IMG/VR virus record: IMGVR_UViG_3300038555_000005
Location: 1 to 52,926 of that record
From: a virus
Length of the DNA: 52,926 nucleotides
Direction: 5' to 3' (one strand)
This document shows, one piece after another, positions 17,101 to 52,926 of the stretch; the first letter of the stretch is position 1; each line of letters opens with the position of its first letter. Under the pieces are notes generated by a model, which worked only from the letters and a program-made list of their open reading frames with translations, was not told where the DNA came from and did not search any database. The position numbers and the translations under genes were made by a program.

Positions 17101-18036
17101 TCAGGCCTTGTTCGGGCCCTTGAGCAGGACGGCGCGGTTCGCGTCGAGCAGCTTCACTCCGTAGAGGAAGTCGACCGACACGACCGTCTGCTTGTACTTG
17201 ATGTCCCAGCCGTACGCGACGCGCACGGACAGACCGCGGTAGCTCTGCACAGCGACCTGGCCCTGGTTGGCACCCGAGGGCACCTCCAGCGGCGCGGACG
17301 CGAGCGCCAGAGCCGAGCGGTGGAACGCCAAGCCGACCTCGGTGGTCGGCTGGCCGACCGCGGGGTTGCTGGCCGGCTGGCCGACCAGGCCCGTCTGGAA
17401 GGCGTCGAAGCCGAACAGGTTGCGGCCGATCGAGCCCTCGCGGAGCGCTTCGGTCGAACCGGACTTGTTCGCCGTCTTCAGCAGCTCGGTGTTGAGCCAC
17501 TTCGACGCCATGGTGGGGCCGACGACCGCGTAACGGTCGCGCTGCGGGACGCTCCGGAGGTCGAGCTGACGCTTGGCCTCGATGAGCACCTCCGGCTTGT
17601 CCCACGTCTGACCGTCGGCGACTGCGTCGGCGTGGGTGCCCGCGACCTGGGTGACCTGGTCACGCAGGCTGAGGACCGCGAGGTCGACGTGCTGAGCGAT
17701 GGCCTCCAACGCCGGCGAGAGGAGCTGCTGATCGAAGTCCTCGATCTTCAGGCTCATGTCCTCGTCGGTGACCGCGAAGGACACGTCGGCGATGTTGTCG
17801 AGCTTCACGGGGACGGAGCCCTCGGTCGCGTCCTGGAGCTGGATGCCCTGGGCGCGGTCGAACTTCTGCGCCGTGAACGTCGCAGGCTTGCGGATGTTGA
17901 TGGTGTCACCCTGCTTGCGGGTCGCGAGCTCGGTGCCGTAGTCCGTGTAGACCAGCGGCCCGAGGAACGTCGACTCGTAGAGGGTGGCGAGCGCCTGCTG
18001 AGCGATCGCGGTGGTGCTGAGGAGGGTGTTTGCCAT
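17101..18036 (-). CDS. Major capsid protein (P22 coat-like)
   Basis: A 311-aa coat protein of HK97 fold. The N-terminus MANTLLSTTAIAQQALATL and the following YTDYGTE region are typical of the P22-type coat family in actinophages. It follows the scaffold gene as usual and is bracketed by hairpins. Coat proteins assemble around the scaffold into the procapsid. Confidence 0.9.
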   Translation of the reverse strand: MANTLLSTTAIAQQALATLYESTFLGPLVYTDYGTELATRKQGDTINIRKPATFTAQKFDRAQGIQLQDATEGSVPVKLDNIADVSFAVTDEDMSLKIEDFDQQLLSPALEAIAQHVDLAVLSLRDQVTQVAGTHADAVADGQTWDKPEVLIEAKRQLDLRSVPQRDRYAVVGPTMASKWLNTELLKTANKSGSTEALREGSIGRNLFGFDAFQTGLVGQPASNPAVGQPTTEVGLAFHRSALALASAPLEVPSGANQGQVAVQSYRGLSVRVAYGWDIKYKQTVVSVDFLYGVKLLDANRAVLLKGPNKA

Positions 18037-18054: not shown

Positions 18055-18753
18055 CTACGACTCGACGCCGCGGCGGTTCTGACGCTCCTTGCGGATGTCG
18101 TCGATGGACTTCTCGCCGGCGGGTGCGCCGCCAGCGGGTGCAGGGTCTCCGTCACTGGACTTGGGGGCCACCTGGGCCTTCCGGTAACGGGCATGCGACT
18201 CGACGGTCGACTTGACCAGCGCCTCCACCTGGGCGGCGTGGTCATCTGCAGTCGGGTCGAGTTCCTTGAGCTTCTTCTTGAAGCTCTCGGAGTCTGTGAG
18301 GGCGTCGACGTCGCCGCCGAAGCGGTCGGCGTGACGCAGGATCGCGTTCTCGATGCGCAGCGCCTGGGTCTCAGCCTGCGACGCCGTGAGCGACTGGTCC
18401 TTGTCCTGGAGAGCCTGCGTGAGGCCGTCCACCGTCGGCGGCTCGTCGTCGGTCACGAGACCGAGCGCCTTGCCGACCTTCTGGACGAAGTCCTTCTGCG
18501 CCTGCTCGGCGGCAGCGCGCGCCTTCTGCGCTTCGCTGCGATAGCCCGCGGCTTCCTTGTTCGCCTTCGTCAGCGAGTTGCGCGCCCACTCGGGGAGCTC
18601 GTCGATGTTCTCGTTCGGGTCCGCGGGGTCGGCAGCGGGCGCAGTCGGCGCAGCGGGCGGACCCGGCACGGGCGGCGCTGGAGTCGGGGCGGGTGCGGCC
18701 GGCGCGGGAGTGGGCGTCGGCTCTGCGGGCTCGGGTGCGGGTGCATCGGGCAT
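18055..18753 (-). CDS. Scaffolding protein
   Basis: A 232-aa protein with an Ala/Pro-rich N-terminus (about 1-45), a long Gln/Glu/Lys/Ala helical region (about 55-180) and a basic C-terminal tail (DDIRKERQNRR), the usual design of scaffolds that bind coat protein electrostatically. I chose the ATG at 18753, with AAGGAGA upstream, over a longer in-frame extension. Confidence 0.82.
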   Translation of the reverse strand: MPDAPAPEPAEPTPTPAPAAPAPTPAPPVPGPPAAPTAPAADPADPNENIDELPEWARNSLTKANKEAAGYRSEAQKARAAAEQAQKDFVQKVGKALGLVTDDEPPTVDGLTQALQDKDQSLTASQAETQALRIENAILRHADRFGGDVDALTDSESFKKKLKELDPTADDHAAQVEALVKSTVESHARYRKAQVAPKSSDGDPAPAGGAPAGEKSIDDIRKERQNRRGVES

Positions 18754-18851
18754 TGTGGATCTCCTTCCCGGCGCCTGGCCGGATTCGGTGGACCGCGCCG
18801 ACATGACGCGGGGTCTGGATGTGCGCAGCGGGGCGCGGTAGAATGGCGGGT

Positions 18852-18897
18852 AGAAGGCGGCAGGCAGTTCACTTTTCGGACAGCCCAGCCGCCTTCT
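18852..18897 (-). terminator. Long-loop hairpin between MuF and scaffold
   Basis: A 10-bp perfect stem (18852-18861 with 18888-18897) and 26-nt loop lie between the nuclease-tailed MuF gene and the scaffold gene. It could attenuate transcription or separate mRNAs. Confidence 0.45.
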
Positions 18898-18910: not shown

Positions 18911-20491
18911 TCAGCGCATGAGCCGGGTCACGGTGCCGTCCTTCGCGATGTGGATCATCGACGTGAACCACGGGAAAGACGCGAATCGTCGGCGCATCTC
19001 ATCGAGCACCATGGCGTCGTCCAGTCGAGTGCGGGCCGTGTCGATGACCACGCGACGAGCGCCCTGCTCCTTCGCACGGTGTAGCTGGTTCGAGATCGTG
19101 CTCTTCCCGATGCCCTGGGGGCTCTTGAACTCCCACAGCTGGCTGTCGACAGTCGCGTCGATGTTCTTGACGCCCTGCCCGGTCTGGATCGTGCGGAACC
19201 GGACCCTGAGACCGACGTCGGCGAGCCTGTTCGCCGTGGCGAGCTCGTGACCCTGCAGGGCCAGGCCCTCGGGGATATGCGGGGCGACCCTCGACGCGGC
19301 AGATACCGGTCGGAGGATGCGCTCCGCAGAGCTCGCCGAGCCGTGGCGGCCGTCAGCGAATCGGACCTGAGCGCGCTCGTAGCGGCGGCGCTGACCAGTC
19401 GCGGAGACATGCGCACGGGTCTCCGCCTGGATAGTGAGGACCCGGCTCTGCTGCCGCTTCGCCTTCGCGGTGTCGCCGGCGGCCGTCGCAATCTCCAGCT
19501 TCCGCTTCGCGTCGCGCTCGCGGACCTCCAGCTCGCGGAGGCGGTCGCGCGCGGCGTGCGCGGCCGGGTCGTACGCGGGGGCCGACACGGAAACCGAGAA
19601 TCCGGGCAGGTACTCGACCAGCACACAGGTGCAGTTCGGGTGCTTCGCCCCAGACGCACGCCAGTCGGCGAGCGTGCCCGCAACGTCGACGGTGATGGTC
19701 CGGTCCTCGTACGAGTGGAGTACTTCGCGTGGCCCTGCCGTGCCGGTGCTCGCGATGATCTTCCCGAACCACGGTGCGCAGTGGTCGCACGCGTTCCGAC
19801 CGCCGAGCACCGTGAACAGGTCGATGCCAACCTGCGCGGCGCGGAATACCTTCGCGTCGTCGTACGCACGGGTGACGGCCGTCCGGGTCGCCATCTCCGA
19901 GTACGTGCCGATGCGCCAGTTACGGCCGGCGATGTCGGTGAACCCAGTGACGCCCCGCTCGAGGAACTCCTGCAGCGCTGCCTTCCGCGCCACGGCCGTC
20001 GGTATGCCGAGCGGCACCTGGCCGGCGTGGTTCGCGATGACCTGCTGGAAGACGTCGCCGCCGACCACGAACTGGCCCATCGCGTCTCGCGGGTAGCGCA
20101 GGATCCTCGCGCGCATGTCCTCGAAGGCGTTGCCGAGATCGTAGGCGACGAGCGCCGCGGCGAGGGCCTGCTGCGTGGAAACGCCAGCGAGCGGCGGTAT
20201 CGACGGCAGCTGCACGACGGATGCCGCGCCCTCGCGCGCCGCGCGAGCGACGATGTCCCCGGCGAGGTCGCGAGTGATTCCCTCCGTCAGCGCGGCGGCG
20301 ATGCCTTCGAGCTCGCGCACGATGGCCAGGCGCTCAGCCAGGTCGGGCATGTCCGGGAGGTCGCGGATCAGGCGGCGGGCGATTGCTGCGAGTAGCCGAG
20401 TCTCGGCGTCCGCGAAGGTGCCCGCCACCTGAGCAGCGATCCGGTACACGAGCTGCTGATAGTCGTCATGCTCGGGGGCGAACCCAGCCAT
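18911..20491 (-). CDS. MuF-like head protein with CdiA-type nuclease
   Basis: A 526-aa two-part protein. Residues about 1-300 form the MuF / phage minor head domain, with a likely zinc site (C235, C238, H284, C287 or C289). After a charged coiled linker (about 310-375), residues about 412-526 resemble the CdiA C-terminal tRNase domain of the PD-(D/E)XK superfamily: GHELATANRLADVG, D445 in KNIDATV, E454 and K456 in LWEFKSP, then an alpha helix and VVIDTA. MuF proteins enter the head and may be ejected with DNA, so the domain could act on a recipient cell. The ATG at 20491 follows GGGAGGTG. No adjacent immunity gene is evident. Confidence 0.82.
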   Translation of the reverse strand: MAGFAPEHDDYQQLVYRIAAQVAGTFADAETRLLAAIARRLIRDLPDMPDLAERLAIVRELEGIAAALTEGITRDLAGDIVARAAREGAASVVQLPSIPPLAGVSTQQALAAALVAYDLGNAFEDMRARILRYPRDAMGQFVVGGDVFQQVIANHAGQVPLGIPTAVARKAALQEFLERGVTGFTDIAGRNWRIGTYSEMATRTAVTRAYDDAKVFRAAQVGIDLFTVLGGRNACDHCAPWFGKIIASTGTAGPREVLHSYEDRTITVDVAGTLADWRASGAKHPNCTCVLVEYLPGFSVSVSAPAYDPAAHAARDRLRELEVRERDAKRKLEIATAAGDTAKAKRQQSRVLTIQAETRAHVSATGQRRRYERAQVRFADGRHGSASSAERILRPVSAASRVAPHIPEGLALQGHELATANRLADVGLRVRFRTIQTGQGVKNIDATVDSQLWEFKSPQGIGKSTISNQLHRAKEQGARRVVIDTARTRLDDAMVLDEMRRRFASFPWFTSMIHIAKDGTVTRLMR

Positions 20492-20602
20492 CACGCACCT
20501 CCCGCGTAGTTGACGGGTGGTTGACGCGAGGCGCTGACGTGCCGCGGTTCCCGCGTGATCTCGGGCTTCTGGTTGTTGATCGGTATCTGATTCACACGGC
20601 CT

Positions 20603-22258
20603 CTATGCGCCGTCGTCGGGAGTCTCGCCCGCCGCCTCCCGCGCCATCCGGTCCCGCAACTTCTCGATGTCCTCGGGCGTCGGCTGCGTGTCGTCGTCCA
20701 CCGTCCCGACCTTCGTCGGATCGGCGGCCTCTCCGATACCGAACTCCTCGCGGATCCGCTTCACCTCGCCGTTGACGGTCTCGCCGTCCCACTCCGGGTG
20801 CTGCATGCGGACTCGCGTCTCGACGGACGCGGACTGTGCGGCGTAGAGCATCTGGTTCGTGCGGGCCATCGACTCCTGATCGGCCTGCGCTTCCGCGGGG
20901 AAGCGGAACTCCGGCTCCTCCTGGGGGCTCTGGCCGTCATACACGATCGAGTCCAGCTGAAGCCACGTGAGGAAGAACGGCGAGAGCGTCTTCCAGTAGT
21001 TGATCTTCTTGTCTCGGGTGCGCTCGGAGAGGCGGTCGTCGGACTTGATCTCCGTAGCGGTGCGCATGCCGGCGTCGGAGCCGCCGATGCTGCCCGGGGT
21101 CCACCCTGCGGAGCGCATCGCCTGGTCACGCAGCTCCTTGACGGTGGCGGCGTGCTCCTCGACACGGATCTCGAACTGGTGGGCGTGGAAACCGAAGTCC
21201 TGCCCGCCGGGGCCCGTGAGCGCGTTCATGCCCTCGTATACCTCGCGGTCGAAGTCGAACGACGCGCCGCCGCCGAACCCGCCGCCTTCGAGGTATTGCT
21301 TCGCGACGACGATGCGGGCCTTCGCGATGCGGATGTCCCGCATCCACGACGACCAGACCTCGTCGACGGCGTCGAACAGCTGGACGATGTCGGCGTAGTC
21401 GGAGATCCCGAGCTGCGAGAGGCGCGGCTCCTTCCGGAACAGCTTGTTCGGGCGCATGTTCGGGACGTAGGCGGCGGTGAGGCCCTTGACCTGCGTGAGG
21501 ATCTGACTGTTCGCGTTGACCACGGCCGGGATGCCGTTGGCGGGGTCGCCGGCGAGCCACGCGGTCTCGGGGCGCTCGGACAGCGGCTGGCGGGTGCCGA
21601 GCTTGTCCTCGGTGCCCTCGTACAGGCCGTGCTCGATCGAACCGGCGGCGTGGTGTTCCAGGTGACGCCAGACATTGCCCTTCTCCCGGGACAGCTCGGT
21701 CCAGAACGTGACCTCGTGCAGCTGACCGAACCGGAAGGTCGGGATCGCCGCGTCGGCGTAGACCGCCTCGGCTCGCACGGTGGTCAGGCGCTCTTTGTTC
21801 CATACGAGGCGGAGGAACGTGCCGCCGAGAGCCGACGCGATCTCGCCGGACTCCAGCAGCAGCGAATGAAACGAGGACGTGTTGATGACCTTCTCGGCGC
21901 GGTCCTGCATCGTGTCGCGGGGCGTGTTCCCGTCCTTCGACCGTTCGCCGGGAAGTACCACGCGCGGCGCCTCGGAGAATAGGTAGTCGGCGGAGAGCGT
22001 CGCGATGTCGGCGGCGAGAGGGATGTGCAGCCGCGAGCGTGTCTCGGCGGTCGCCTGTGGCTTGCCGAGCCATGCGCGCGCGCCGGCGCCGAGGATGCCG
22101 CCGTTGTACTGCGCCGGGTGCGAGATCGGGCGGTCGCGGTAGATGGACGCGAGTGCGGCGATGTTGCCGGTGTACCAGCCGTCGAACACTTCGAGGAGGT
22201 CGAAGTAGGGAGAGAACTCCTTCGGCGGCCAGGTCACGTTCCCAGTGGGCAGCGGCAT
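20603..22258 (-). CDS. Portal protein (SPP1 gp6-like)
   Basis: A 551-aa portal, the dodecameric DNA gate at one head vertex. Its length and order (terminase, portal, MuF, scaffold, coat) match gp6-like portals; conserved-looking stretches include LLLESGEIASALGGTFLRLVWN and MRTATEIKSDDRLSERTRDKKI. The acidic C-terminus (TPEDIEKLRDRMAREAAGETPDD) is typical. The ribosome site is AAGGGAG. Confidence 0.9.
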   Translation of the reverse strand: MPLPTGNVTWPPKEFSPYFDLLEVFDGWYTGNIAALASIYRDRPISHPAQYNGGILGAGARAWLGKPQATAETRSRLHIPLAADIATLSADYLFSEAPRVVLPGERSKDGNTPRDTMQDRAEKVINTSSFHSLLLESGEIASALGGTFLRLVWNKERLTTVRAEAVYADAAIPTFRFGQLHEVTFWTELSREKGNVWRHLEHHAAGSIEHGLYEGTEDKLGTRQPLSERPETAWLAGDPANGIPAVVNANSQILTQVKGLTAAYVPNMRPNKLFRKEPRLSQLGISDYADIVQLFDAVDEVWSSWMRDIRIAKARIVVAKQYLEGGGFGGGASFDFDREVYEGMNALTGPGGQDFGFHAHQFEIRVEEHAATVKELRDQAMRSAGWTPGSIGGSDAGMRTATEIKSDDRLSERTRDKKINYWKTLSPFFLTWLQLDSIVYDGQSPQEEPEFRFPAEAQADQESMARTNQMLYAAQSASVETRVRMQHPEWDGETVNGEVKRIREEFGIGEAADPTKVGTVDDDTQPTPEDIEKLRDRMAREAAGETPDDGA

Positions 22259-22494: not shown

Positions 22495-22761
22495 CTATGC
22501 GAAGCGGTGCAGCAGGTACGCGCCGAGACCGGCCGTCGCACTGACGGGCTGCTCGGACGGAGAGACGACAGCGCGGCCAGCTTCCCCCGACTGCTCGAGC
22601 TCGGCGTTCGTCCACTCCACACCGACCGCCCACGCGACCACGAACGGGTCCTCATCGGGGCGGATCAGGCGGAGGTACTCGGAGATCGCCCGGCCGACGG
22701 CGTCGCGAGCGGCGACGACATCGGGCGCGAGGTACTCGTACGGCCGTTCACCGTCGCTCAC
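22495..22761 (-). CDS. Hypothetical protein (88 aa)
   Basis: A helical, acidic 88-aa protein of unknown function that ends the HIT/2H cassette. It starts with GTG overlapping the preceding stop (GTGA), so it depends on upstream translation. No family motif is recognised. Confidence 0.65.
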   Translation of the reverse strand: MSDGERPYEYLAPDVVAARDAVGRAISEYLRLIRPDEDPFVVAWAVGVEWTNAELEQSGEAGRAVVSPSEQPVSATAGLGAYLLHRFA

Positions 22762-23138
22762 GAGCGCTGTTCTGTCCACGGCAGCCGGAGGCCGTCGCCT
22801 GCGCGGCGGGGCACGTAGTGCACGTGCAGGTGGCGGACGGTCTGCGATGCCTCCGGCCCGGCGTTCACGATGAGGTTGAAGTCCTCGCCCTGCTGCGCCG
22901 CCCACCAGGCGGCCCACTCGAAGACAGCGCCGGTCGCCGCGGGAGCTTCCGCTGCGTCCTCGTAGTGGAAGGCGGGGATGAACAGACGGTGGCGGGGCGT
23001 GACGGGGTTGAGGGGTTCGAAGTGGTAGACCCCGGACGAACCGAGCTGCTCGATGCCCGTCCCCTTGGTGACGTGCTCCATGACCAGCACGCAGAACGGG
23101 CATCCCGCCTCGGCGGCGACAGCGGTCGCGGCGCTCAC
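22758..23138 (-). CDS. HIT-family nucleotide hydrolase
   Basis: A 126-aa protein with the histidine triad H103-L-H105-V-H107-Y and the upstream FNLIVNAGPEASQ loop typical of HIT enzymes. An N-terminal C13-x2-C16 pair matches the zinc-binding HIT subgroup. HIT proteins hydrolyse or transfer nucleoside phosphates (AMP-lysine, dinucleotides, adenylated intermediates). The GTG start overlaps the 2H phosphoesterase stop (GTGA). The partner enzyme upstream suggests handling of a nucleotide or RNA-end product; the substrate is unknown. Confidence 0.85.
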   Translation of the reverse strand: MSAATAVAAEAGCPFCVLVMEHVTKGTGIEQLGSSGVYHFEPLNPVTPRHRLFIPAFHYEDAAEAPAATGAVFEWAAWWAAQQGEDFNLIVNAGPEASQTVRHLHVHYVPRRAGDGLRLPWTEQRS

Positions 23139-23737
23139 GGCCGGCCCCCGTAGTCGATGCCTGTCACCGCGAGCGGGGCATCGCGCAGCGCACCTTGGAG
23201 CGCGCGCACCCAGGCTTCGGCGGTGGTGCTCGCCCAGTCGACGCCGGACGGCTGATCCTTCACGTAGGCGAGGGTCACATGCGCCCGGTAGCCGGGGAAC
23301 GTGTTGATGTGCGGGAGGTACGACAGGCGAGCGTGCGCCTTGGCGAGCTCGGGCGTGATCACCAGGTGCGCAACGATGCACTTGTACGGCTCATCGGGGT
23401 AGGGCGAGTCGAAGATGCCGACGTGGTCGACCTTCACCGATGCGAGTTCGACGTCGGCGAGGAGCGCGTCGACGTGCTCGCGCCACACGGGCCCGGGCTG
23501 CATGAGCCCGTAGAGCAGGGTCGCGTGCGCGCCGGTCTCGGCGACTGCGCCGTCGATCCAGAAGCGCTCCGCCAGGTTCGGCGAGGTGTAGAGGTCACGT
23601 TCTGGGGCCAGGCCCGCGTCACGCGCGTAGTCGGTGACCGCGATGTGCTCGACCTCGGCCATGATGCAGCCGAGGTCGCTGATCTTGATGCCGAGCGCGG
23701 CGTGCACGTCGGGGAACAGGTGGACGGACTCGCTCAT
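23135..23737 (-). CDS. 2H phosphoesterase family protein
   Basis: A 200-aa protein with both signature motifs of the 2H superfamily: H71-A-T73-L and H153-V-T155-L, spaced as in ligT/AKAP7-like enzymes. Family members cleave 2',3'-cyclic phosphates or 2'-5' linked and cyclic oligonucleotides, including phage anti-CBASS enzymes. It is coupled by ATGA/GTGA overlaps to a small membrane protein gene and the HIT gene. Target molecule unknown. Confidence 0.83.
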   Translation of the reverse strand: MSESVHLFPDVHAALGIKISDLGCIMAEVEHIAVTDYARDAGLAPERDLYTSPNLAERFWIDGAVAETGAHATLLYGLMQPGPVWREHVDALLADVELASVKVDHVGIFDSPYPDEPYKCIVAHLVITPELAKAHARLSYLPHINTFPGYRAHVTLAYVKDQPSGVDWASTTAEAWVRALQGALRDAPLAVTGIDYGGRP

Positions 23738-24429: not shown

Positions 24430-24969
24430 ATGCAGCCCACTAAGCAGCACCGAGAGACGGCCTCTGACCTGGATCGGAAGTTCCGCAGGGGTGCGTACGT
24501 CGGGATACTCGTCAGCGAGAGCGATAAGGACGCGCACGCACTCTGGTATGGGCGTGTGCTCACCGCACTGACCATCACGGCCGCCGGCGAAGAGATCATC
24601 TGGGCGCAGATGCAGGTTCGGGATGAGGGCGGGGGCGAAGTGTTCTTCACTGTCCTCACCGCCCAGGCGGTGCTCCTTGGGCACGCCACCGGCGTCAAGG
24701 AGGGCACTCCGAAGATCGACGACGTACGAGCGATCGGTCGAAACGCCCTTGCCCTGGTCGAAGTGAAGGCCGATGTCGAGATCGACGGGAATGGCGCGTC
24801 CGCGCACGCTTGGCCCGGCAACGTCCAGGTCGTCGCCGAGTACCGCGTGCCGAAACCGCAGGGCAAGCAACTCGTCTTCTTCGGGGCCTACGAGACGCAG
24901 AGCGACCAGGAGAACGAATCTCCGGTGCTCGGCCTGCTGGCCGAGTTGCAGAAGGACCTGAACTCCTGA
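24430..24969 (+). CDS. Hypothetical protein (179 aa), plus strand
   Basis: An unrecognised soluble protein with a strong GGGGGG ribosome site. It has a beta-rich middle (VGILVSESD, ALWYGRVLTALTI, FFTVLTAQAVLLG) and ends with an acidic helical tail. It is oriented against the late operon and paired with the lipoprotein downstream, which suggests separate expression, perhaps in lysogens. An immunity role toward the MuF nuclease is possible but untested. Confidence 0.6.
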   Translation: MQPTKQHRETASDLDRKFRRGAYVGILVSESDKDAHALWYGRVLTALTITAAGEEIIWAQMQVRDEGGGEVFFTVLTAQAVLLGHATGVKEGTPKIDDVRAIGRNALALVEVKADVEIDGNGASAHAWPGNVQVVAEYRVPKPQGKQLVFFGAYETQSDQENESPVLGLLAELQKDLNS

Positions 24970-24986
24970 GGCGGGTGGGACGGCGC

Positions 24987-24992
24987 TATTCT
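24987..24992 (+). promoter_or_regulatory. Leaderless -10 element (TATTCT)
   Basis: TATTCT lies exactly 6 nt before the lipoprotein ATG and there is no Shine-Dalgarno site. The lipoprotein mRNA is thus probably leaderless and driven from its own promoter, within the end of the gene at 24430. The -35 region is poor. Confidence 0.5.
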
Positions 24993-24998
24993 GAGCGC

Positions 24999-50215: not shown

Positions 50216-50244
50216 TTGCGCTGTTGTTGTTGTGCAACTACGAT
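50216..50244 (+). promoter_or_regulatory. Repressor promoter (rightward, leaderless)
   Basis: TTGCGC (50216-50221) and TACGAT (50239-50244) are separated by 17 nt. The ATG at 50252 lies 7 nt after the -10, so the mRNA has no leader. Operator O3 sits inside the spacer, which would give autorepression. Confidence 0.7.
50229..50238. promoter_or_regulatory. Immunity operator O3 (GTTGTGCAAC)
   Basis: Third operator, 47 bp from O2, abutting the -10 box of the repressor promoter. Confidence 0.7.
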
Positions 50245-50251
50245 GACAGGC

Positions 50252-50719
50252 ATGACAGACACCCGCTGGTGGAGCTATGTGCAGACGGTTTCGGCCGGCG
50301 CGCCCAACAACGAGATCGCAGACCGCGTCGGCATCGACAAGTCGAATGTGACCCGCTGGAAGCAGGGGAGCCGGCCTGCAGTCGACTTCGTCCTGAAGTT
50401 CGCGCGCAGCTATGGCCGCCCTGTGGTCGAGGCGCTGGCCGAAGGCGAATACATCACGGACGACGAGGCGGAGATCCGCGAGGTGAAGATCGGAGTCAGC
50501 GACCTCGCCACGGTCGAGCTTGCTCGCGAGCTCTTGACGCGCGTGGAAGCCGCGGAGACGCCCGCCGCTCCGCTGCGCGCGCTGAATGTCCCCACCTCCA
50601 CAGAGGATCTTGAGATGCGCCCTCCGCGAACCATGGATCGCAGCAAGATCGCGGCCAAGGATCGGACGCCTCGCGAAACAGATCAGGCCGCCCCCGGCGA
50701 GCACCCCGCTGACCACTGA
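50252..50719 (+). CDS. Immunity repressor
   Basis: A 155-aa HTH repressor (HTH about residues 19-42, NNEIADRVGIDKSNVTRWKQG), basic in its C-terminal region with an acidic middle. It is divergent from the Cro-like gene and leaderless. The ImmA-like gene follows 10 nt later, so repressor cleavage by that protease is the likely induction route, as with ImmR/ImmA. Confidence 0.82.
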   Translation: MTDTRWWSYVQTVSAGAPNNEIADRVGIDKSNVTRWKQGSRPAVDFVLKFARSYGRPVVEALAEGEYITDDEAEIREVKIGVSDLATVELARELLTRVEAAETPAAPLRALNVPTSTEDLEMRPPRTMDRSKIAAKDRTPRETDQAAPGEHPADH

Positions 50720-50729
50720 GGAACAACGG

Positions 50730-51173
50730 TTGAGACAGCTTCTACGCCACGCCGCGCAGCTCGGCTACAGTGTGCGTGTCTGGGACCTCGGCGATTCGAT
50801 GGCCGGCCAGACCGACACCGTGGACCGAGTAATCACCCTGAATCTCGGGCTGACGCTCCCTGAGCATCGATCGACTCTCGCTCATGAGTGTGGTCATGCC
50901 TACTACGGCCACGACTGCACCGACCCTGTGACGGAGCGACGTGCTCGGAAGTATGCAGCAACGCTGCTGATTGATCCCAGCGAGTACGCGCGCCTGGAGC
51001 GCATCAACCCTGACCAGCACTGGCTCGCTGAGGAGTTTTCTGTGACGGTCGACATCATCGAGGACTACGAGGAGCTCTGTCTCACACCCTTGCGCGGCGT
51101 GACCTACGCCAACGCTCGCGACGGCGTAGGTCAGTGGTCGTTCATGTCGCAACGGGTGGGAGCGCTGGCATGA
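50730..51173 (+). CDS. ImmA/IrrE-type metallopeptidase
   Basis: A 147-aa protein with the zinc protease motif HECGH (H52, E53, H56) in LAHECGHAYYGH. ImmA enzymes cut the adjacent HTH repressor to induce a mobile element. I chose the TTG at 50730 because GAGGAA lies 6 nt upstream; an ATG at 50586 would run through the repressor gene. Coupled expression with the repressor is expected. Confidence 0.82.
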   Translation: MRQLLRHAAQLGYSVRVWDLGDSMAGQTDTVDRVITLNLGLTLPEHRSTLAHECGHAYYGHDCTDPVTERRARKYAATLLIDPSEYARLERINPDQHWLAEEFSVTVDIIEDYEELCLTPLRGVTYANARDGVGQWSFMSQRVGALA

Positions 51174-51178
51174 AGCAG

Positions 51179-51187
51179 TTATCCACA
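51179..51187 (+). promoter_or_regulatory. DnaA-box-like site (TTATCCACA)
   Basis: A perfect match to the DnaA box consensus TTATCCACA lies just after the ImmA gene. A single site may be a coincidence or a regulatory element; it is not evidence of an origin on its own. Confidence 0.4.
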
Positions 51188-51213
51188 GGGGGAGCGCGCC
51201 TCGCGCGCACGCG

Positions 51214-51237
51214 ATCCCCTCTCGTAAGAGAGGGGAT
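51214..51237 (+). terminator. Terminator after the immunity operon
   Basis: A 10-bp perfect stem (51214-51223 with 51228-51237) and 4-nt loop follow the ImmA gene by 40 nt. It is A/G-rich afterwards, not T-rich, so termination may need help. Confidence 0.55.
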
Positions 51238-51239
51238 AA

Positions 51240-51258
51240 GGGTCGGGTCGGGTCGGGG
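51240..51258 (+). other. G-quadruplex-type motif
   Basis: Four G-runs separated by TC (GGGTC three times, then GGGG) match the G-quadruplex pattern. It lies between the terminator and the integrase gene. Region 51174-51471 otherwise holds no gene. Confidence 0.5.
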
Positions 51259-51290
51259 AAGCCGGACTCACAGAGAGACTCACGCGAGGA

Positions 51291-51303
51291 GTCACGGCGT
51301 GAC
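51291..51303. promoter_or_regulatory. Palindrome GTCACGGCGTGAC upstream of int
   Basis: A 13-bp perfect palindrome identical to one in the iterons at 36629-36641. A related palindrome GTCACAGTGTGAC is at 51444-51456, ending 15 nt before the integrase ATG. These could be binding sites for the initiator or another regulator. Confidence 0.5.
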
Positions 51304-51443
51304 CGTGACGCCGATCCCCGGAAAATCAGCATTTCCTGCGGTTTGCGACGACTCCGTCGAAGGTGGCTACTCAACGCGCGAGTCCTCGCGACGGGACCGA
51401 AACAGAGACGACCCGCGGCCTCTCGATGTGAGGGACACCGAGA

Positions 51444-51456
51444 GTCACAGTGTGAC
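51444..51456. promoter_or_regulatory. Palindrome GTCACAGTGTGAC at integrase start
   Basis: Same arms GTCAC/GTGAC as the site at 51291, just upstream of the integrase ribosome site. Position suggests an operator that controls integrase. Confidence 0.5.
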
Positions 51457-51471
51457 GACAAGGGGGACGGA

Positions 51472-52926
51472 ATGATGAACGTTCAGGGCGCCCGCGAGGG
51501 CACACAGCCCGCACAGCGACGGCGCGGTCTCGGCATGATCCGAGTGTCGAAGGAGCGCGACGGAATGACGTCGCCTGACATCCAGCGCAACGCCATCGAG
51601 TCCTTCGCCGCCGCGAACGCCATCGACATCGTCGATTGGGTCGAAGGCATCGACGAGTCGGGGTCGCGGGTTCGTTCGGCATGGTGGCCGAGACTCGACC
51701 AGTCAGTCGAACGCCTCAAGCGCGGGGAGATCGACGTCATCGTGGTGTGGAAGTTCTCCCGCACCGGTCGCAACCGGCTCAAGTGGGCCATCGCGATCGA
51801 CAGCGTTGATACCGCCGGCGGTGCGATCCTCTCCGCCACTGAGCCGATCGAGACCGCTACCGCCTCGGGCAGGTTCGCGCGGGGGATGCTCGGCGAGCTC
51901 AACGCCTACCAAGCCGACCTCATCGGGGAGGGCTGGAAGGACTCGCACGCCCGCCGATTCCGCGAAGGTAAGCCGATCAACGGCCGCCCGCGGTTCGGCT
52001 ACGTCTACGACACAGCGTCGAAGTCGTTCGCGCCGGATCCGGTGAGCGGTCCGATCCTCGCCGCGGCCTATCGGCGATACATCGCGGGGGAGAGCTTCTA
52101 CTCGCTCATCGAGTGGCTGAACAGGGGGCCGACCCGGCCTGTCGCCGGATACGGGCCGAGAGGCGGCGACGGTCTATGGACTCAGGAGACGCTGCGCCGC
52201 GTTCTGGACGCCGGATTCGGTGCCGGGGTCATCACGTACCGCGGGGAGACGAAAACGGGCGCACACGAGCCTGTGATCACCGCGGATGAGTGGGAGGCCT
52301 ACCTGGAGACGCGCAATCGCCGCCGCGTCTACCGCAGGACCGAGCGATCTGAGTACACCTACTCCGGAATCCTCTGGTGCACGTGCGGGTCCAAGATGCA
52401 CGGCAGCACCTCTGGTGGCGACCCATCGCGGGCCTATCGGTGTCGATACGGCATCGAGAAGCGCGCTCACGCGGGCGGCTACATCCTGGAGAAGCAGATC
52501 GACAAGGCCGTGCTGGCATGGCTGGGCGAGAGTCGGGACCGTGCGCACAGCGAGATCGCGGAGAGCATCAGCCGCCTCCCGGAAGTCGCACCGGTGGACG
52601 CTACTGCCGAACTCGAGCGACGTCTCGCAGAGCTCGCCAACAAGCAGGTCGTGCTCGCTGAACAGCGCCTCATCATGGGGCTCCCGCAGGCCTCCTACGA
52701 GACCCTCCGCGACAGGTGGGCGGCGGAGGCTGCCGGGCTGGAACAGGAGCTCCGAACGATGAAGAAGCGACGGGTAGCACCCCTGACGGTGCTACCCGTG
52801 CTCCTCGACCGCTGGGATGATCTGGAAGTGGCCGAGAGGCGCGAATACATCCGGTCTCTCGTGGCGCGGATCGAGATTACGCCCGGCACCCGCGCCTCTC
52901 AGCGCATCGCCATCACGCCGCACTAG
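51472..52926 (+). CDS. int: Large serine integrase
   Basis: A 484-aa serine recombinase. The catalytic N-terminus has S26 in MIRVS, with R24, then the WKFSRTGRNR region (R97, R100). A recombinase domain (about 160-290) and a zinc-ribbon-like part follow (C303-T-C305, C324, and H333 as possible fourth ligand), then a coiled-coil region (about 375-440) and a basic end. It integrates the phage at an attB site and, with a directionality factor, excises it. The ATG at 51472 follows AGGGGG. The stop codon is the last triplet of the window, so attP is not resolved. Confidence 0.93.
   Translation: MMNVQGAREGTQPAQRRRGLGMIRVSKERDGMTSPDIQRNAIESFAAANAIDIVDWVEGIDESGSRVRSAWWPRLDQSVERLKRGEIDVIVVWKFSRTGRNRLKWAIAIDSVDTAGGAILSATEPIETATASGRFARGMLGELNAYQADLIGEGWKDSHARRFREGKPINGRPRFGYVYDTASKSFAPDPVSGPILAAAYRRYIAGESFYSLIEWLNRGPTRPVAGYGPRGGDGLWTQETLRRVLDAGFGAGVITYRGETKTGAHEPVITADEWEAYLETRNRRRVYRRTERSEYTYSGILWCTCGSKMHGSTSGGDPSRAYRCRYGIEKRAHAGGYILEKQIDKAVLAWLGESRDRAHSEIAESISRLPEVAPVDATAELERRLAELANKQVVLAEQRLIMGLPQASYETLRDRWAAEAAGLEQELRTMKKRRVAPLTVLPVLLDRWDDLEVAERREYIRSLVARIEITPGTRASQRIAITPH

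Follow-up and report, generated by a model that had tools for sequence, protein, structure and literature searches.

Known MuF toxins and the locus examined here

MuF-type phage head proteins that carry a C-terminal toxin domain have been described from temperate phages, and among them are MuF toxins with the Bp1026b-type domain cd13442 (Jamet et al. 2017, PMC5576092). PF06152 (MuF2) is one of the MuF families in that survey, 89.4% of its MuF toxin genes precede a small open reading frame (ORF), which the authors did not require, and one MuF toxin was detected by phage proteomics. Two MuF toxins, Apk2 and Bxa, are toxic when expressed (PMC12226406, PMC11699363), and CdiA-CT Bp1026b cleaves the acceptor stem of tRNA-Ala (PMC9086364). 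Here we analyse a 52.9 kb virus contig, IMG/VR record IMGVR_UViG_3300038555_000005, the whole of which (52,926 nucleotides, nt) is called the window, and one of its genes, which encodes a MuF head protein of 526 amino acids (aa) with a nuclease-like tail. A sequence-only reading of this DNA had likened the tail to CdiA nucleases and pointed to known MuF-toxin fusions of temperate phages; that precedent holds, and extends to the Bp1026b-type domain on a MuF protein, which is already published (PMC5576092). It is suggested here that the protein is likely to be a MuF polymorphic toxin of a temperate phage, with a head body joined to a CdiA-CT Bp1026b-type nuclease that would be delivered by the virion and would cut tRNA; we infer that it is present in the virion, is ejected, acts on RNA and is toxic. 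The kind of fusion is already known, and what is new is its occurrence in a probably actinobacterial group of phages and the missing antidote.

Structure of the tail and the head body

The CdiA_C profile PF18451 matched the tail over its full length (E 3.8e-8, 33.8 bits against a curated cut-off of 26.6; a genome search gave 37.5 bits). Four aligned tails were used to build an AlphaFold model, which had a mean predicted local distance difference test (pLDDT) value of 79.7 and a predicted template modelling (pTM) score of 0.78, and a Foldseek search of the PDB with this model gave a sole match below 0.001, 4g6v_A (E 3.5e-6), the CdiA-CT tRNase of Burkholderia pseudomallei 1026b. Structural alignment of the two gave a Z score of 13.4 and a root-mean-square deviation of 2.6 Å over 119 residues, with the runner-up at Z 7.2. 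The only strong match in the PDB is the CdiA-CT Bp1026b tRNase, so that the outcome which would speak against the sequence-only reading, no match to a PD-(D/E)XK tRNase, did not occur. Against PDB sequences a six-tail profile also ranked 4g6v_A first (E 0.011); the profile was needed, as phmmer with a single tail returned unrelated matches only. A search of BFVD structures gave nine matches at E<=0.001, every one of them to a phage protein, and most are annotated as minor capsid, portal, MuF-fusion or contact-dependent inhibition (CDI)/CdiA toxin-like.

In the six-tail profile alignment E416, D445 and E454 correspond to E187, D214 and D223 of CdiA-CT Bp1026b, which are listed together with K242 as its active site (PMC9086364). 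Nine tails were compared, those of the window, of G001, G002, G005, G063, G136 and G069, and of Mycobacterium phage MalagasyRose and Tsukamurella phage TPA4; E416, D445 and K456 are invariant in all of them and position 454 is always E or D. The sequence-only numbering of D445, E454 and K456 is exact, and E416 adds a carboxylate at a fourth active-site position. With profile, fold, active-site conservation and selection (see below) in agreement, the tail is almost certainly a nuclease of the PD-(D/E)XK (CdiA-CT Bp1026b-type) fold.

The rest of the protein is a minor head body, which matched PF06152 above cut-off over residues 19-363 (E 4.2e-31) and the minor head protein phrog_581 in PHROGs (E 1.9e-48). 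A Cys/His site had been noticed in the body from the sequence; it comprises C-x2-C and H-x2-C-x-C, and is unchanged across relatives. The charged linker is likewise present, and evolves faster than any other part.

Tailed and tailless relatives and the immunity gene

Three IMG/VR contigs hold the whole fusion (G001, G002 and G005; 79%, 70% and 72% identical, respectively), while in two others, G003 and G004, the body is 70% identical and ends just past the start of the linker. All five are syntenic around the fusion gene, and because G003 and G004 have no tail, it is evidently dispensable for the head. Simple pairwise estimates of the ratio of nonsynonymous to synonymous substitution rates (dN/dS) were 0.26-0.38 for the tail, near those of the body (0.22-0.44), which indicates that the tail is under purifying selection. 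In trees of four taxa the body favoured a grouping of the window with G001, alternatives being rejected by the approximately unbiased (AU) test (P about 0.004), whereas the tail favoured a different grouping, with window and G001 together at AU P 0.051; informative-site patterns were 48:17:16 in the body against 2:13:6 in the tail (chi-square P 1e-4). Since the two phylogenies conflict, the tail seems to have been swapped independently of the body, and this together with purifying selection marks it, as far as sequences can tell, as a functional, exchangeable module. In G003 the tail's expected place, at the MuF stop, is taken by an antisense HNH endonuclease gene (L004:7157-7642, minus strand; phrog_1492, E 1.8e-53).

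The actinophage context, an observation of the sequence-only reading, is present but not unique to the window. MalagasyRose gp9 and TPA4 orf4 have PF18451 tails on VG15-type (PF25310) head proteins, and such tails are also found in Leucobacter-family genomes. In a set of 400 genomes from a single family, with a Leucobacter metagenome-assembled genome at its centre, 27 matched the fusion profile to some degree, several of these weakly; the MuF tails in this set include the PF18451 type (G063, G136, G069) and zincin-like peptidases, and many of the MuFs are short. PermaG has an ADP-ribosyltransferase tail, and Mycobacterium phage Nergal gp7 (L035:4001-5788), a head protein related to MalagasyRose gp9 by family, has a glutamine-deamidase toxin tail with a papain fold (PF15644) where the nuclease would be. 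The head proteins of actinobacterial phages thus swap C-terminal toxins, which is a hallmark of polymorphic toxins. Separately, the prophage MuFs with zincin-like HExxH tails in the Leucobacter-family contigs L054 and L057 (same prophage as L015) are each overlapped at their ends by a similar acidic ORF of 47-51 aa, perhaps an antidote.

The gap between the MuF stop and the scaffold ORF is about 106 nt, and none of the ORFs listed in this 3' gap in the window, G001, G002 and G005 is a convincing small coding ORF, which bears out the earlier remark that an adjacent immunity gene is lacking. In the shared region no gene is common to all tail-bearing phages yet missing from both tailless ones, and profiles of the small ORFs beside other PF18451 tails found nothing convincing in the window or its relatives. 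The absence of an antidote is therefore real at the level of sequence, although an unrecognised one could lie elsewhere. By contrast, three other actinobacterial PF18451-tailed head proteins have an ORF of 95-107 aa immediately after them. MalagasyRose gp10 and TPA4 orf5 (103-107 aa) share a 4-nt overlap with the end of the fusion gene and are in no other phage record, and in G069 an ORF of 95-98 aa starts at the gene end; these are candidate immunity genes, not clearly related to one another. MalagasyRose gp10 (L009:6339-6650) is annotated as a scaffolding protein, but with a length of 103 aa, no counterpart in other phage records and an overlap with the end of the PF18451-tailed gp9, it is more likely an immunity gene. 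Nergal gp8 was also considered and rejected; it is similar (shuffle z 5.1) to Appa gp9, an ORF located after a short MuF, and is probably a generic head-region ORF.

A stem-loop follows the fusion gene directly and, while non-coding, ranks across four phages with the best-conserved parts of the portal-to-capsid region. That it is an RNA antidote or a tRNA mimic is made unlikely by equally strong hairpins of unrelated sequence, which come after short MuF genes in prophages. It had no match in Rfam, and a single match in a further viral contig (L039) was due to chance. The stem-loop is probably an operon-level feature, and perhaps serves generally in attenuation or processing between the MuF gene and the scaffold gene.

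Possible functions of the tail

If the protein is a MuF polymorphic toxin, each virion would hold a few copies near the portal, and these would enter the cell together with the phage DNA. The last ~113 residues, as a metal-dependent PD-(D/E)XK nuclease, would then cut the recipient's tRNA and slow translation, and this could arrest a competitor or tilt the fate of the infected cell. We regard tRNA as the probable substrate and delivery by the virion as somewhat more plausible than not. Several points weigh against this interpretation. K456 occupies the canonical place in the ExK motif, unlike K242 of Bp1026b, and the substrate could therefore differ from that of Bp1026b; some PD-(D/E)XK proteins are DNases, CdiA-CT TA271 among them (PMC9086364); and the full-length structure model was poor (pLDDT 50.4, with a minimum at about residues 370-389 and rising thereafter) and was set aside, the arrangement of body and tail not being readable from it.

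The missing antidote invites a more speculative suggestion, which we consider unlikely, that the virion-carried nuclease toxins of this lineage form an orphan class in which no immunity protein is required. The tail would act on the cell being infected, in host takeover, the lysis-lysogeny choice or counter-defence, and would be harmless or sequestered in the producing cell; it could therefore move between phages as a bare domain with no antidote gene. A less likely alternative to the tRNase reading is that the tail is an active nuclease on DNA or host defence RNA, serving early takeover or counter-defence and not the killing of competitors. The DNases of this fold would be consistent with such a role, as would XisH and type IIS restriction enzymes among the lower-scoring structural matches of the tail; an effector aimed at the cell being infected would also fit the missing antidote, and Iyer et al. 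discuss takeover and counter-defence roles for MuF fusions (PMC5512222). The tRNase 4g6v, however, is 6 Z units above the next match. It is quite improbable that the tail has lost its catalytic activity and serves as a nucleic-acid-binding module which helps to package or anchor DNA: viral DNA is a presumed ligand of MuF proteins (PMC12226406) and the MuF of phage Mu has an inactive nuclease-like domain (PMC5512222), but here the four active-site positions are kept in every tail compared, the tail is under purifying selection, and close relatives manage without it. A P-loop GTPase/ATPase fragment, suggested by a weak match to RsgA_GTPase (PF03193, 21.3 bits over the GIGKSTISN stretch), is already refuted by the PD-(D/E)XK fold and by conservation; the score is below the curated cut-off of 30 and the P-loop GK is lost in G005 (GAGASTIS), MalagasyRose and TPA4.

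With this protein the range of MuF nuclease toxins widens to temperate phages of hosts that are probably actinobacteria. The syntenic phages, some tailed and others tailless, offer a natural comparison, and the tail appears to recombine independently of the head protein. A lineage with no immunity gene, set against lineages with a small ORF after the same nuclease, makes it testable whether the tail is a weapon or acts on the infected cell; competitor weapons need an antidote, and effectors on the infected cell may not.

Genome setting and comparison with known systems

The limits of the gene given by the sequence-only reading are right, and its strand is the minus strand, the plus-strand reading of the same interval not being open. 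The fusion gene is flanked by portal and scaffold genes, in the minus-strand order terminase, small-gene block, portal, fusion gene, probable scaffold and major head protein (Table 1). The large serine integrase, with helix-turn-helix (HTH) and ImmA-like genes, at 50243-52926 indicates that the phage is temperate. The closest cultured phages, a Leucobacter prophage relative and a G+C content of 67% suggest that the host is probably an actinobacterium.

Table 1. Coordinates of the fusion gene, its parts and other features in the window
Feature	Coordinates	Strand	Remarks
MuF-nuclease fusion gene, 526 aa	18911..20491	-	ATG at 20491, stop 18911-18913; alternative GTG start possible at 20494
MuF / Phage_min_cap2 minor head body, residues 1-381	19349..20491	-	PF06152, phrog_581; tailless homologues end here
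CxxC half of Cys/His site	19778..19789	-	invariant in relatives
HPNCTC half of Cys/His site (H-x2-C-x-C)	19625..19642	-	H and both C invariant in relatives
Variable linker, residues 382-413	19253..19348	-	quickest-evolving segment
CdiA_C-type PD-(D/E)XK nuclease tail, residues 414-526	18914..19252	-	PF18451; AF2 model; 4g6v_A
E416 codon	19244..19246	-	aligns with E187 of CdiA-CT Bp1026b
D445 codon	19157..19159	-	aligns with D214
E454 codon	19130..19132	-	aligns with D223; E or D in 9/9 tails
K456 codon	19124..19126	-	lysine of (D/E)XK motif; K in 9/9 tails
Stem-loop, 41-44 nt	18853..18896	-	immediately 3' of fusion gene; nearly invariant in four phages
Terminase large subunit	25407..26741	-	phrog_2, E 5.1e-44
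Portal protein	20603..22258	-	phrog_533, E 1.4e-88
Probable scaffold gene	18055..18804	-	by position; phrog_8952 (function unknown)
Major head protein	17101..18036	-	phrog_283, E 1.1e-62
HTH regulator and ImmA/IrrE-like peptidase	50243..51173	+	adjoining integrase
Large serine integrase	51472..52926	+	PF00239, PF07508, PF13408

Other genes of the region may be mentioned briefly. A 2H phosphoesterase / 2'-5' RNA ligase-like protein (23135-23737, minus strand) has a weak match to Acb1, which acts against the cyclic-oligonucleotide-based antiphage signalling system (CBASS), and a HIT-domain gene (22758-23138) adjoins it; neither gene was found in the tail-bearing G001, G002 and G005. Two genes at 24430-25403 (plus strand) are opposed to the direction of the late operon, one encoding a 179-aa protein with no Pfam match and the other a DUF732 lipoprotein, a possible superinfection-exclusion moron; lipoproteins occur at the equivalent place in G002, G004 and G005.

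Apk2 and Bxa (PMC12226406, PMC11699363) are, like the protein described here, prophage MuF head proteins with a C-terminal toxin, but they are an alarmone synthetase or ADP-ribosyltransferase with adjacent immunity genes and experimental toxicity, whereas the window encodes a nuclease of presumed toxicity. With CdiA-CT Bp1026b (PDB 4G6V) the tail shares the PD-(D/E)XK fold and the three aligned carboxylates, at 19% identity and with K456 in place of K242 as the lysine; profile score above cut-off, core fold, carboxylates and lysine are all as in the CdiA_C PF18451 tRNases. The Bp1026b toxin is delivered by CdiB/CdiA and has a CdiI, while the tail in the window is borne on a phage head protein in a late operon, and the CDI (CdiB/CdiA/CdiI) secretion system is thus not matched. 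MalagasyRose gp9 and TPA4 orf4 are also PF18451-tailed actinophage head proteins whose genes lie between those for portal and scaffold, though their head part is VG15 instead of PF06152 and each overlaps an ORF of 103-107 aa. Compared with the MuF polymorphic toxins (PMC5576092), which are reported mainly from Firmicutes and usually have a small downstream immunity ORF, the window phage is probably actinobacterial and has no such ORF. It shares with them a MuF domain adjoining the portal gene, a C-terminal toxin domain also used by CdiA, and tailed and tailless versions side by side; an N-terminal MuF-superfamily domain, a C-terminal toxin domain, a location in the head/packaging module and a temperate phage are found together here, as in the MuF polymorphic toxins.
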